NCBI RefSeq assembly: GCF_040219335.1
Contig: NZ_JAVJSQ010000019.1
Span: 496,001 to 560,000, forward strand
DNA from: Gimesia sp.
GTDB taxonomy: Bacteria > Planctomycetota > Planctomycetia > Planctomycetales > Planctomycetaceae
DNA length: 64,000 nucleotides
Direction of reading: 5' to 3'
Below the pieces are notes generated by a model that was not told the origin of the DNA, searched no databases, and saw only the letters and a program-made list of their open reading frames with translations. Below, piece by piece: positions 9,430-58,065 of the stretch (position 1 is the first letter of the stretch; each line of letters begins with the position of its first letter). The translations under genes and the position numbers were made by a program.

Positions 9430-10891
9430 ACTTCAAATGCAGCAGTCGCTGCCGCAGCAGCCAGAAGTGCCCTCAGCGGCGCCACTGTTCTCGCGTCGTC
9501 AGTTTCTGCAGACGGCAGGGGGCGGCTTCAGTGGCATGGCCTTAATGGCGATGCTGGCCGGTGAAACGAAGGCTGAACCGCACTATCCTGCCAAGGCGAA
9601 ACGCGTGATTCAGATTTTCTGTCCGGGTGGAATGAGCCATGTCGACACCTTCGATTTTAAACCGGCATTAGAGAAACGGGCGGGACAGCCCTTTGACCCG
9701 GACGGCAAGCTGCAGTTCTTCGCGTCGAAACCGGGCAACTGTCAGCCTGGTTACTGGAAGTTCAAACGGCATGGGGAATCGGGCCTCTGGATGAGTGATC
9801 TGTTTCCCAAGCTGGCGAACTGCATTGACGACATGTCGTTCATTTATTCGATGCACAGTAAAACGGCCCTGCATGGCCCCGCCTGTTTCATGATGAATAC
9901 GGGATTCACGCTGCCCGGCTTTCCCAGCATGGGAGCCTGGGTGACTTACGGTCTGGGGAGCGAAGCGGAGGATCTGCCCGCATTCGTCGTACTGCCCGAT
10001 CCACGGGGACTGCCTCCCGGTGGCATCATCAACTGGGGCGCCGGATTTCTGCCCGCGGTGCATCAGGCGACGACACTCGATACATCTAATCCCCGGCAGC
10101 CCATTGCCGACCTCTTTCCACCGGATGAGTTCGCAGCGCAGACCAAACAGAGCGAACAGCCGGGACTCGACTTCCTCCAGAAACTGAATCGCCTGCATCA
10201 GCAACCCCGTTCCGGTAACAGCGAACTGGATGCGCGAATCAAGGCGTATGAGATGGCAGCCCGCCTGCAGTTAAGTGCACCGGAGGTGACCGACCTCGCC
10301 TCTGAGACGACCGCGACCCGCGACCTGTATGATGTCGATCATCCCGAAATCGGTCCCTTTGGACGACAGTGTCTGCTGGCGCGGAGACTGGCAGAACGGG
10401 GCGTGCGGTTCGTGCAGATTTATTGCGGTGCGGAGAACACGACAGCCAAAAAGATTCGTCCGAACTGGGACAGCCACGAAGACCTGGTCCGCGACCACGG
10501 ATACTGGGGGGCTGTGCTCGATACCGGAGCCGCCGCTTTACTGCAGGATCTGAAGCAGCGGGGCATGCTGGACGATACGCTCGTCATCTGTACGACCGAG
10601 TTTGGTCGACAACCGGCAGGTCAGGGGAAACAGAGTAAGGGTCGTGACCATAACGCGGGTGCCTTTACGTCCTGGCTGGCGGGCGGGGGCATCAAAGGGG
10701 GCGTCGGCTATGGGGCCACCGATGAGCTGGGCTTCAAAGCGGTCGAATCGCCGGCTTACAGTTACGATCTGCACGCCACGGCTCTGCATCTGTTGGGGAT
10801 CGATCATACAAAACTGACGTTTTATCATAACGGAATCGAACGCCGTCTGACCGACGTGCATGGTCACGTCATTCAGGAACTGCTGTCCTGA
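9419..10891 (+). CDS. Tat-exported DUF1501 protein
   Basis: A DUF1501 protein of 490 residues, related to the alkaline phosphatase/sulfatase superfamily and typically partnered with DUF1549/DUF1553 proteins. A twin-arginine signal SRRQFLQTAGG is near residue 25. Other family features are SHVDTFDFKP near the N-terminus, TTEFGRQP, and GRDHN near the C-terminus. The ATG at 9419 is chosen because it lies inside the Tyr-Val-Asp-stop codons of the upstream gene, exactly as in the second pair at 13863; an in-frame ATG at 9407 is an alternative. The overlap predicts coupled translation. Substrate unknown. Confidence 0.88.
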   Translation: MSIKLQMQQSLPQQPEVPSAAPLFSRRQFLQTAGGGFSGMALMAMLAGETKAEPHYPAKAKRVIQIFCPGGMSHVDTFDFKPALEKRAGQPFDPDGKLQFFASKPGNCQPGYWKFKRHGESGLWMSDLFPKLANCIDDMSFIYSMHSKTALHGPACFMMNTGFTLPGFPSMGAWVTYGLGSEAEDLPAFVVLPDPRGLPPGGIINWGAGFLPAVHQATTLDTSNPRQPIADLFPPDEFAAQTKQSEQPGLDFLQKLNRLHQQPRSGNSELDARIKAYEMAARLQLSAPEVTDLASETTATRDLYDVDHPEIGPFGRQCLLARRLAERGVRFVQIYCGAENTTAKKIRPNWDSHEDLVRDHGYWGAVLDTGAAALLQDLKQRGMLDDTLVICTTEFGRQPAGQGKQSKGRDHNAGAFTSWLAGGGIKGGVGYGATDELGFKAVESPAYSYDLHATALHLLGIDHTKLTFYHNGIERRLTDVHGHVIQELLS

Positions 10892-54083: not shown

Positions 54084-55562
54084 TCAGTCCAGATTCATGG
54101 TCACCGTCTTCAATTCCGTATAGTTGGCAAGTCCGGCCGCACCCAACTCACGACCGATGCCACTCCGTTTGAATCCACCAAAGGGAGCGGCGGCATCAAA
54201 TACATCGTAGCAGTTCACCCAGACGGTTCCGGCCTTGATACTCTGGGCCATAAGATGTGCTTTCTTTACATCACTGGTCCAGACTGCAGCCGCCAGTCCA
54301 AACTGAGTGTTGTTGGCTCGCGTAACGACTTCATCCAGGCTTTTAAATGGAAGAATGCTCAATACAGGTCCGAATATTTCATCGGTGGCAATCGGCATAT
54401 CATCGGTCACCTGATCGAAGACCGTCGGTTCTACGAAGTAGCCTTTCTCGCCAAACCGGGATCCACCGGTTACGCATTTTGCCCCGGCTTCAGTCCCTTT
54501 TTGGATGTAGCTCAGAATCTTCTCCATCTGTGCCTGATCTACCTGTGGCCCCTGAGTGGTCTCGGGATTGAGAGGATCTCCCAGCTTACGGGCCGAGGCT
54601 CTCTCGACAATCTTAGCCACGAATTCCTCATGAACGGCTTCTTCTACGAACAGTCGACTGCCGGCACAACAGCACTGCCCCTGGTTAAAGAACAAACCAA
54701 ACTCAGCTCCCGCGACAGCAGCGTCCAGATCGCAGTCGGCGAATACGACATTCGGACTTTTTCCCCCCAGTTCAAATGTCAGGCGCTTGAGGGTCTGGGC
54801 TGCATCAGCCATGATGATTTTGGCGGTCGCATCTTCCCCTGTGAAGGCAATCTTATCGACATCCGGATGTTTGACTAAAGCGGCCCCTGCGGTGGGACCA
54901 TAACCTGGCACTACGTTGATGACCCCGGGTGGATAACCGGCTTCCATCGCCAGTTCCGCCAGACGCAGGCAGGAAAGCGGTGTCTGTTCTGCCGGTTTCA
55001 TGACGATTGTGCAACCGGCCGCCAGTGCAGGTGCCCATTTCCAGGCAACCATCAGCAAGGGAAAGTTCCAGGGAATGATCTGACCGGCGACACCGATGGG
55101 TTCACGTCGGGTGTAGCAGAAATGGTTTCCGCGGATCGGTATCGTCGTGCCTTCAATCTTGTCTGCCCAGCCGGCATAGTACCGCAGGCAGTCAATCACC
55201 AGAGGCAGGTCTGCAGCACGACTGTCACGAATCGGTTTGCCGTTATCCAGAGACTCCAGTGCAGACAGCTCTTCAATGTTTTCTTCAATCAGGTCGGCCA
55301 GACGATACATCAGCCGCCCGCGATCCCGGGCATCCATCTTCGACCAGGGGCCTGTTTCAAAAGCAGCCCTGGCAGCTTTAACGGCCAGATCGATGTCAGC
55401 TGCATCCCCTTCCGCTACTTCTGCGATGATTTCTTCTGTAGCCGGATTGACTGTCGCAAAGGTTTTCCCGCTGACCGCATCACACCATTCACCATCAATC
55501 AATAACTGAGTTCTGCGAATCTGGGGAGCAACTGCTACGGTATCTAAAGCGTCTGTGGCCAT
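54084..55562 (-). CDS. Aldehyde dehydrogenase (ALDH1/2-like)
   Basis: A 492-residue NAD(P)-dependent aldehyde dehydrogenase. The general-base region [12 protein letters not shown], the catalytic cysteine stretch GQCCCAGSR and the C-terminal [13 protein letters not shown] are all present. It is closest in appearance to the ALDH1/2 and betaine-aldehyde group, so it may act on a range of aliphatic or aromatic aldehydes. It has no operon partner that reveals its substrate. It is 33 kb from the hydroxyproline-type genes, so supplying their missing last step is possible but unsupported. Confidence 0.9.
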
Positions 55563-55749: not shown

Positions 55750-57027
55750 TTAGATGGCCCGCAGAATCGCAGCTGCACTCTGACCAAAGGCGGTTCGGCT
55801 GACCGACATCGTCGTTGGTGTAATGAGCGGCCGCACTTCACCGTGCACGATATCCAGGTTACACATTGGATCCGGCGTTTCGTAGTTCAACGTGGCTGGA
55901 GTCGCACCATGCCGCAGCGACAGAATACTGGCTGCGAGTTCAACAGCTCCAGAGCCGGCATCGAAGTGACCGAAGTAGCTCTTCAGTGCTGTAATCGGGA
56001 TCTTAACCGCATCATCACCGAACAGACGGTGGTAAGCACGTGCTTCGACCTGATCATCGATTTTCGTGCTCTTACCGTGGGCATTGATGTGGCCCAGTTC
56101 GGAAGGTCTGATTCCTGCCTGACGGACAGCCGATTCAACAGCCCGCATCAGGCCGGTATCGTTCTGCTCATCGGAGCTGCCATCACAGCCGGCACCGAGT
56201 CCGATCACTTCCGCATAGATCTCCGCACCACGGCGAACAGCGTGATCGTAGTTTTCGACAACGAAAGCTGCAGCACCTTCACCCAGAATTGTACCGTTGC
56301 GGTCACGATCGAATGGACGACAGGCACGTTTGGGATCTTCATCGCGTGAAAGCAGGTCGATGAGGTTTTTGCGGGACAGATCGACGGGGTTGATGTTGGA
56401 AGTACAGGCTCCGACAACCATGCAGTCGACTGCACCACGCTTGATCCAACGCATCGCTTCAGCCAGAGCCAGTAAGGCAGAAGAGTCCTGGCTGGTAATC
56501 GTGTTATTCGGTCCCTGAGCGTTATGCTCAATCGAAATATGGCAGGCTGGCATGTTGGGGAGCTGTCGCAGCATCCACAGGGGGGTAATCTGTCCCAGAA
56601 CGTCTTCACCCCAGCGGGTAATTTCGAAGGAATCATCGGCAGCACAGCGGTTGACGGCTTCGACCAGTTCATCGGGAGTCGTCGGAATGTGACCGGCACC
56701 AAAGGAGACACCAAAACGCTCAGGATCGACGGTTCCCCGCTTGATACCCGCGTTTTTCACAGCATCTGAAGCAGCAGACACCCCAAGCTGAATGTCGCGT
56801 GACATAACTTTGATGAATTTTTTGTTGTAGAGGTGTTCGTCCGGATTGAAGTCTTTGACCTCTGCAGCCAGTTTGGACGGAAGATTCTCGATCGGGATTG
56901 ATTGCAGACGATCAATCCCCGAAACACCTGAACTTATATTGCGCCAAAAACTGTCTATACCGATACCAATTGGAGATACAACTCCAATTCCGGAAATGAC
57001 CACGCGCGTTTGATTTGACCCAGCCAT
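55750..57027 (-). CDS. Beta-ketoacyl-ACP synthase-like protein with Asp in place of the catalytic Cys
   Basis: A 425-residue thiolase-fold protein of the FabF type. Fold and active-site histidines are kept: INAHGKSTK near residue 315 and the Lys/His of LKSYFGHF near 350. The nucleophile position, normally TACxS, reads TSQDSS with Asp181 where Cys should be. Such substitutions occur in decarboxylating KSQ-type domains and in chain-length-factor subunits, so condensation in the usual way is not expected. No ACP or partner ketosynthase gene is adjacent. The start at 57027 has AGG upstream. Confidence 0.85.
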   Translation of the reverse strand: MAGSNQTRVVISGIGVVSPIGIGIDSFWRNISSGVSGIDRLQSIPIENLPSKLAAEVKDFNPDEHLYNKKFIKVMSRDIQLGVSAASDAVKNAGIKRGTVDPERFGVSFGAGHIPTTPDELVEAVNRCAADDSFEITRWGEDVLGQITPLWMLRQLPNMPACHISIEHNAQGPNNTITSQDSSALLALAEAMRWIKRGAVDCMVVGACTSNINPVDLSRKNLIDLLSRDEDPKRACRPFDRDRNGTILGEGAAAFVVENYDHAVRRGAEIYAEVIGLGAGCDGSSDEQNDTGLMRAVESAVRQAGIRPSELGHINAHGKSTKIDDQVEARAYHRLFGDDAVKIPITALKSYFGHFDAGSGAVELAASILSLRHGATPATLNYETPDPMCNLDIVHGEVRPLITPTTMSVSRTAFGQSAAAILRAI

Positions 57028-57621: not shown

Positions 57622-58065
57622 TTAGGCATCGATAATTTCGAAAATCGCTTCCACTTCAACTGCCACACCCGTAGGCAGCGCTGCAAAACCGAGTGCACTG
57701 CGGGCATGATAGCCATCGCCGGCCTTGCCGTAGAGTTCGTGGAACAGATCAGAAGCACCATTAATCACCAGGTGCTGATCGGTAAAATCAGGAGTGGAAT
57801 TGACACAGCCGAGCAGCTTGATGACCCGCAGTCCATCGAGTGTTCCGTGCTCATCGCGAACTGACCGCAGAATCTTGACGGCACAATCGCGGGCCGCAGC
57901 AATCCCTTCTTCGAGGCTTACGTTTTCACCCAGACGTCCCTTCTGATCACTCACATGACCTGAAGTCATCAACAGGTTACCGGTACGAATACAGAGATTG
58001 AGATACCCAGGTTCAATGGGCTCAAAATTCAGCCCCAGTTCAGCAGCTTTCTGCTCAGCGGACAT
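57622..58065 (-). CDS. RidA/YjgF-family protein
   Basis: A 147-residue RidA-superfamily protein, longer than the 128-residue archetype and similar to the YjgH/Rid-type subgroup with an extended N-terminus. The conserved Arg is present in HARSALGF, followed by LPTGVAVEVEAIFEI. RidA proper hydrolyses reactive enamine/imine intermediates; whether this subgroup does so is uncertain. Confidence 0.87.
   Translation of the reverse strand: MSAEQKAAELGLNFEPIEPGYLNLCIRTGNLLMTSGHVSDQKGRLGENVSLEEGIAAARDCAVKILRSVRDEHGTLDGLRVIKLLGCVNSTPDFTDQHLVINGASDLFHELYGKAGDGYHARSALGFAALPTGVAVEVEAIFEIIDA

Follow-up and report, generated by a model that had tools for sequence, protein, structure and literature searches.

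A cysteine-less ketosynthase-like protein of Gimesia as a putative chain-length-factor-like subunit, and its acidic relatives in planctomycetes

Introduction

A gene on the minus strand of a 64,000-nucleotide stretch of Gimesia sp. DNA (assembly GCF_040219335.1, contig NZ_JAVJSQ010000019.1, positions 496,001 to 560,000; this whole stretch is called the window) encodes a ketosynthase (KS)-like protein, KS-D, in which an aspartate occupies the position of the nucleophilic cysteine. Sequence comparison and the gene order of relatives suggest, with moderate confidence, that KS-D is a KS-beta, or chain-length factor (CLF)-like, subunit of the C14-type cysteine ketosynthase that has been displaced from the operon of its partner. 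The operon pairing and the evolutionary order are new here. The acid substitution itself is already in print, because Rattray et al. (2009; PMC2649909) tabulate Asp163 in RB3714 and Glu163 in RB4527, two FabF paralogues of Rhodopirellula baltica.

Results and discussion

Active site and fold of KS-D

The coding sequence and the codons of its active-site positions are as follows; the counts refer to the 80 relatives described below.

55750-57027, minus strand: KS-D (P0001), coding sequence of the acidic ketosynthase-like protein, 425 amino acids, ATG start
56485-56487, minus strand: codon 181, GAC, Asp at the position of the FabF nucleophile Cys in PDB alignments
56077-56079, minus strand: codon of His317, first catalytic His position, in NAHGKST; His in 60 of 80 relatives
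55981-55983, minus strand: codon of Lys349, in KSYFGH; Lys in 77 of 80 relatives
55966-55968, minus strand: codon of His354, second catalytic His position; His in 29 of 80 relatives

Both ketoacyl-synthase halves, PF00109 and PF02801, are matched in KS-D. The active-site stretch reads NTITSQDSSALLALAEA, with Asp181 on the FabF cysteine, and His317, Lys349 and His354 are kept alongside it. The open reading frame (ORF), the PDB alignments and the GAC codon confirm the observation of an earlier note, made from the letters of the window, that an Asp stands at the nucleophile position of a ketosynthase with both histidines and the lysine retained. KS-D carries AFGQ in place of the FabF GFGG loop and scores 331.5 bits against the FabF model TIGR03150, below the curated cut-off of 493.75; the C14-type ketosynthase (517.3 bits) and the FabF of the fab locus (613 bits) of the same genome both exceed it. 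As judged from these residues, KS-D cannot perform the cysteine-based acyl transfer of a condensing enzyme.

Pfam and an AlphaFold2 model (25 sequences, mean predicted local distance difference test score 88.9, predicted template modelling score 0.89) give KS-D the two-domain thiolase/FabF fold. FabF structures rank first in Foldseek and VIA-align comparisons with the model, with VIA Z values of ~61 (61.4 for 3o04), and Bacillus subtilis FabF (4ls6, 4ls5 and 4ls8) provides the top PDB matches in both sequence and fold. Solved homologues returned by the PDB sequence and fold searches have ketosynthase folds only, and the role of KS-D does not follow from its fold.

Conservation of the acidic residue

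Relatives were collected by scanning contigs with the patterns LPNM[PLV]ACH and [DN]A[RQ]GP[NS]N[TS][IL]T, both of which exclude residue 181. The scan yielded 593 confirmed stretches, the best 80 of which form the basis of the family counts; their titles name planctomycete taxa, save one that is given merely as 'bacterium', and the closest named relative among them is an uncultured Gimesia metagenome-assembled genome (88%). Position 181 is acidic in all 80 (Asp in 44, Glu in 36) and position 349 is Lys in 77. The first catalytic position is His in 60 and another residue in 20, and the second is His in 29 and has lost it in 51, 35 of which have Asn. Conservation of the acid at 181 thus exceeds that of each of the two catalytic histidines. 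A few acidic relatives (L129/L175 and L176) lack both His317 and Lys349, yet have Asp or Glu at 181. Under strict E-value limits, and with at most four or six candidates scored per genome, searches of the phylum returned at least 33 of 392 and at least 30 of 294; these minima do not describe a distribution.

Seventeen genomes of the genus were searched for KS-D and 14 gave full-length copies; G014 has only a fragment at a contig end (83%), and G012 and G016 have no close match. Asp181, both catalytic histidines and the lysine are present in all 14 distinct full-length sequences, the window's own included, and an error of sequencing is accordingly a very unlikely source of Asp181. Four pairs had a dS strictly between 0 and 1, and their dN/dS values relative to the window gene were 0.017-0.023; the remaining genus pairs were near or beyond saturation. 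The gene is real and selected, and the purifying selection is strong. The family alignment that the earlier note had proposed thus shows Asp in every full-length genus copy and Asp or Glu throughout the 80 relatives. Cys, the residue that the note had named as contrary evidence, is absent from all KS-D orthologues read and occurs at this position only in the tandem homologues of family f18, which are more distant. The note's description of an isolated Asp variant holds for the gene context of KS-D and fails for the substitution, which runs through the whole family.

Paralogues in the window genome and their distribution

PF00109 has seven matches in the window genome, one of them partial. The closest paralogue of KS-D (42%) is KS-E, with Glu at 181:

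L058 10953-12254, plus strand, window-genome contig C29: KS-E, Glu-for-Cys ketosynthase, directly downstream of plsX-fabD-acpP-fabF

Next in similarity is the C14-type cysteine ketosynthase (36%), which lies in an operon at L059. A further two cysteine ketosynthases, divergent and with long branches, are encoded at L060 9660-11030 and L061 9319-10635. There are also two acyl carrier proteins (ACPs), one of 128 amino acids in the C14-type operon (L059 8443-8829, plus strand) with AES-I and one in the fab locus (L058 8976-9209) with ADSL at the attachment serine.

Of the 101 family genomes, 99 have a KS-E-like match, 97 the C14-type ketosynthase and 85 KS-D. The last figure derives from 92 genomes matching at E <= 1e-100, minus seven (G030, G035, G056, G064, G069, G072 and G098) whose best match is just 42-47% identical. 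G026, which is 79% complete, is the sole family genome with neither acidic gene at the limits used. The C-terminal family of ketoacyl-ACP synthase III (KAS III), PF08541, which is wider than FabH, is matched in 100 of the 101, and the KAS III protein of the window genome has FabH-like active-site motifs as read by eye. Since this protein is present, primary priming needs no substitute, and the idea that KS-E or KS-D stands in for the FabH missing from plsX-fabD-acpP-fabF was ruled out.

Pairing of acidic genes with a cysteine ketosynthase

In 10 of the 80 loci (L178-L180, L182-L184, L200, L201, L203 and L208) the acidic gene immediately precedes a C14-type cysteine ketosynthase gene on the same strand, with gaps of 10-169 bases. 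The figure is a lower bound, because contig ends truncate several of the 80. The same pairing is seen at L112 and L116, which belong to other families. Around the ten pairs, an ACP, a second dehydratase (DH2) and a hydrolase are found in 10 of 10, a first dehydratase (DH1) in nine, a GH3 gene in eight and FabG in six; L200 served as the reference for this count and so scores all, and Pfam was run on L200, L112 and L116. ORF listing and BLAST served to locate the ACPs, a regular-expression search having been discarded after it missed even existing ACPs. At L200 (4617-12376) and at similar loci in several Planctomycetota, two FabA-like dehydratases, FabG, a long ACP, two ketosynthases, a hydrolase and a GH3-type ligase stand together.

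The corresponding operon of the window genome (L059) runs DH1-FabG-ACP-DH2-KS(Cys)-hydrolase, with no acidic ketosynthase between DH2, which ends at 9461, and the ketosynthase, whose ORF starts at 9592. The single GH3 gene of this genome sits on another contig. Elsewhere KS-E is found closer to the C14-type gene: in G073 (L221) it lies ~1.6 kb past the ketosynthase of the C14-type operon on the same strand, and G097 has an additional KS-E gene adjacent to, and convergent with, an additional C14-type ketosynthase gene.

These arrangements are consistent with a role for KS-D as the beta subunit of the C14-type ketosynthase in a second, dedicated type II fatty-acid or polyketide module comprising a dehydratase, FabG, an ACP, a further dehydratase, KS-beta, KS-alpha, a hydrolase and a GH3 ligase. 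KS-D, rather than KS-E or in alternation with it, would fill the empty KS-beta slot of the window-genome operon and may form a heterodimer with KS-alpha, and the acid at 181 might have a structural or channel-shaping role.

Several observations weigh against this assignment. The ten acidic/Cys pairs include no KS-D-type locus, of which there are 46 (L132-L177), and relatives of the C14-type ketosynthase, FabF, the dehydratases and GH3 were found in none of these 46 loci and in none of 31 KS-D contexts; the loci compared span 4-18 kb and many are cut by contig ends. A single acpP-like match, at L166, is the only one in the KS-D loci compared, and within the window no Cys KS-alpha stands beside KS-D. 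As KS-D is unlinked, its partner is inferred. KS-E, next to fabF, could be the true partner. Finally, His317 is mostly kept in the acidic family, and four actinobacterial CLFs that were read have Asp there.

Alternative roles

The lack of linkage would also suit a pseudoenzyme acting on its own: without a ketosynthase partner, a homodimer would bind acyl-ACP or a lipid in a regulatory or storage role. The 46 and 31 loci in which KS-D lies away from ketosynthase genes point in this direction, as does the strong purifying selection. We nevertheless regard this role as doubtful, since the deeper-branching acidic relatives are linked to a Cys ketosynthase and the C14-type ketosynthase is present in nearly all family genomes.

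In KSQ-type malonyl decarboxylases, Gln replaces the active-site Cys. By analogy, Asp181 together with His317 and His354 might make an acetyl-ACP starter for the second module, and the retention of both histidines and the lysine in all same-genus proteins speaks for such an enzyme. The relatives have Asp or Glu rather than Gln, and they have lost His354 in 51 cases, His317 in 20 and the acid in none; a conserved decarboxylase is hard to reconcile with an acid that is invariant while the histidines vary. Primary priming, moreover, would be covered by KAS III. Such an activity is unlikely for KS-D. Of the two functions that the earlier note had put forward, the non-catalytic partner fits the linkage to a Cys ketosynthase in 10 of the 80 loci and at L112 and L116, and the loss of histidines with the acid kept; the decarboxylative role is not supported at the family level, because only 29 relatives keep His354 and 60 keep His317. 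Within the window's own genus, where all 14 copies retain both histidines, the decarboxylative role would still be conceivable.

That the primary FabF is the partner, with KS-D and KS-E tuning chain length in ordinary fatty-acid synthesis, is very improbable: KS-E does follow plsX-fabD-acpP-fabF in the window genome, and a KS-E-type gene comes after FabF at L195 and L202, but the acidic genes that branch more deeply are paired with the C14 type and KS-D itself is not near fabF.

Evolutionary history

A maximum-likelihood tree of 81 rows was computed by a quick search, with Shimodaira-Hasegawa-like approximate likelihood ratio test values as the only support. The acidic ketosynthases form one clade (98), and L113_KSa, which bears Cys, branches at its base (95). 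The C14 type, L113_KSb included, forms a group (99) that is sister to the acidic ketosynthases, and the joint group has a support of 99. The actinobacterial KS-alpha and CLF sequences cluster together (86), apart from the planctomycete group. An origin of the acidic ketosynthases independent of the actinobacterial CLFs is thus favoured by the tree but not proven, because the approximately unbiased test does not reject a joint clade of the two (p 0.341).

The family f18 genomes G154, G174 and G316, of which G154 alone is in the tree, have Cys in both tandem ketosynthases. These Cys/Cys tandems (L113 7683-10331, L239 and L241) probably represent the state that preceded the Cys/acid pair. L112 carries Asp together with an unaltered set of His, Lys and His. 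The sequences suggest an order in which a Cys/Cys pair was followed by the change of one Cys to an acid and then by the loss of His354 and of the loop.

Across 12 Cys/acid pairs, every one of the 66 comparisons shows the acidic member to be the less conserved, at a mean identity of 0.538 versus 0.663. The identity matrices of the two members correlate with r = 0.969, a value equalled in none of 5000 permutations; such a correlation would be expected anyway of genes that are inherited together.

A wider scenario, which we put forward as speculative and rather unlikely to hold in full, would have a KS-alpha/KS-beta heterodimer arise in Planctomycetota from a Cys/Cys tandem through replacement of one Cys by an acid, independently of the actinobacterial CLFs. 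In Planctomycetaceae, KS-beta would then have left the operon and given rise to KS-D and KS-E, two unlinked genes whose products contend for a single KS-alpha; the choice of beta subunit expressed would let the cell switch chain length in a single product line.

If the assignment of KS-D as a beta subunit is right, the acid substitution, reported in 2009 with no function attached, would acquire a role, in a dedicated lipid or polyketide module of several planctomycete families. The series from Cys/Cys through Asp with the rest intact to Asp or Glu with His lost would record a condensing enzyme becoming a chain-length subunit. It would also point to a planctomycete product whose genes are kept by almost all family genomes.

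Genomic neighbourhood of KS-D

The two flanking genes, neither of which is argued to be part of the system, are:

54084-55562, minus strand: aldehyde dehydrogenase (PF00171), downstream neighbour
57622-58065, minus strand: RidA-like protein (PF01042), upstream neighbour

The order RidA, KS-D, aldehyde dehydrogenase recurs in all 14 same-genus loci, the window's own included. The aldehyde dehydrogenase adjoins KS-D in none of the compared loci from other genera, and no conserved KS-D neighbourhood was seen beyond the genus in the loci compared, some of which are on short contigs and a few of which leave KS-D unlabelled.

Comparison with known systems

The nearest published counterparts of KS-D and KS-E are RB3714 and RB4527 of R. 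baltica, which match them in phylum, position, the two acids and the presence of two paralogues per genome, as judged from the published residues. Rattray et al. (PMC2649909) grouped both with anammox paralogues, and the available text gives no partner or operon pairing for them. In the literature searched, mostly without subscription papers and in part as excerpts, no other account of the acidic paralogues was found.

FabF (KAS II) shares the fold of KS-D and is its best PDB match; KS-D differs in lacking the Cys, in falling below the TIGR03150 cut-off and in its AFGQ loop. The actinobacterial CLFs, the KS-beta subunits of type II polyketide synthases (PKSs), resemble KS-D in having a ketosynthase fold without Cys (VIA Z 59.6 for the actinorhodin protein, 1tqy_B). 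The four that were read have Gln (two), Gly or His at the 181 position, and Asp and Arg in place of His317 and His354, respectively. Each of them adjoins a Cys ketosynthase, unlike KS-D, and in the tree they cluster with their respective KS-alpha subunits.

In a review, the CLF is described as an inactive ketosynthase within an obligate heterodimer (PMC12664062). A catalogue of type II PKS clusters published in 2023 lists Planctomycetes among the phyla with KS-CLF matches, which may or may not be the present genes (PMC10132072). Mad-family malonyl-ACP decarboxylases are described as providing FabH-independent priming in Proteobacteria (PMC8666670). The aryl polyene ApeO-ApeC module combines a ketosynthase, a CLF, a ketoreductase, dehydratases and two ACPs, and its CLF, ApeC, is of half size (PMC8358021). 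The planctomycete pairs are alike in their fatty-acid-synthase-like gene set and differ from the module so described in having two full-length partners and, in most operons read, a GH3 ligase as well.
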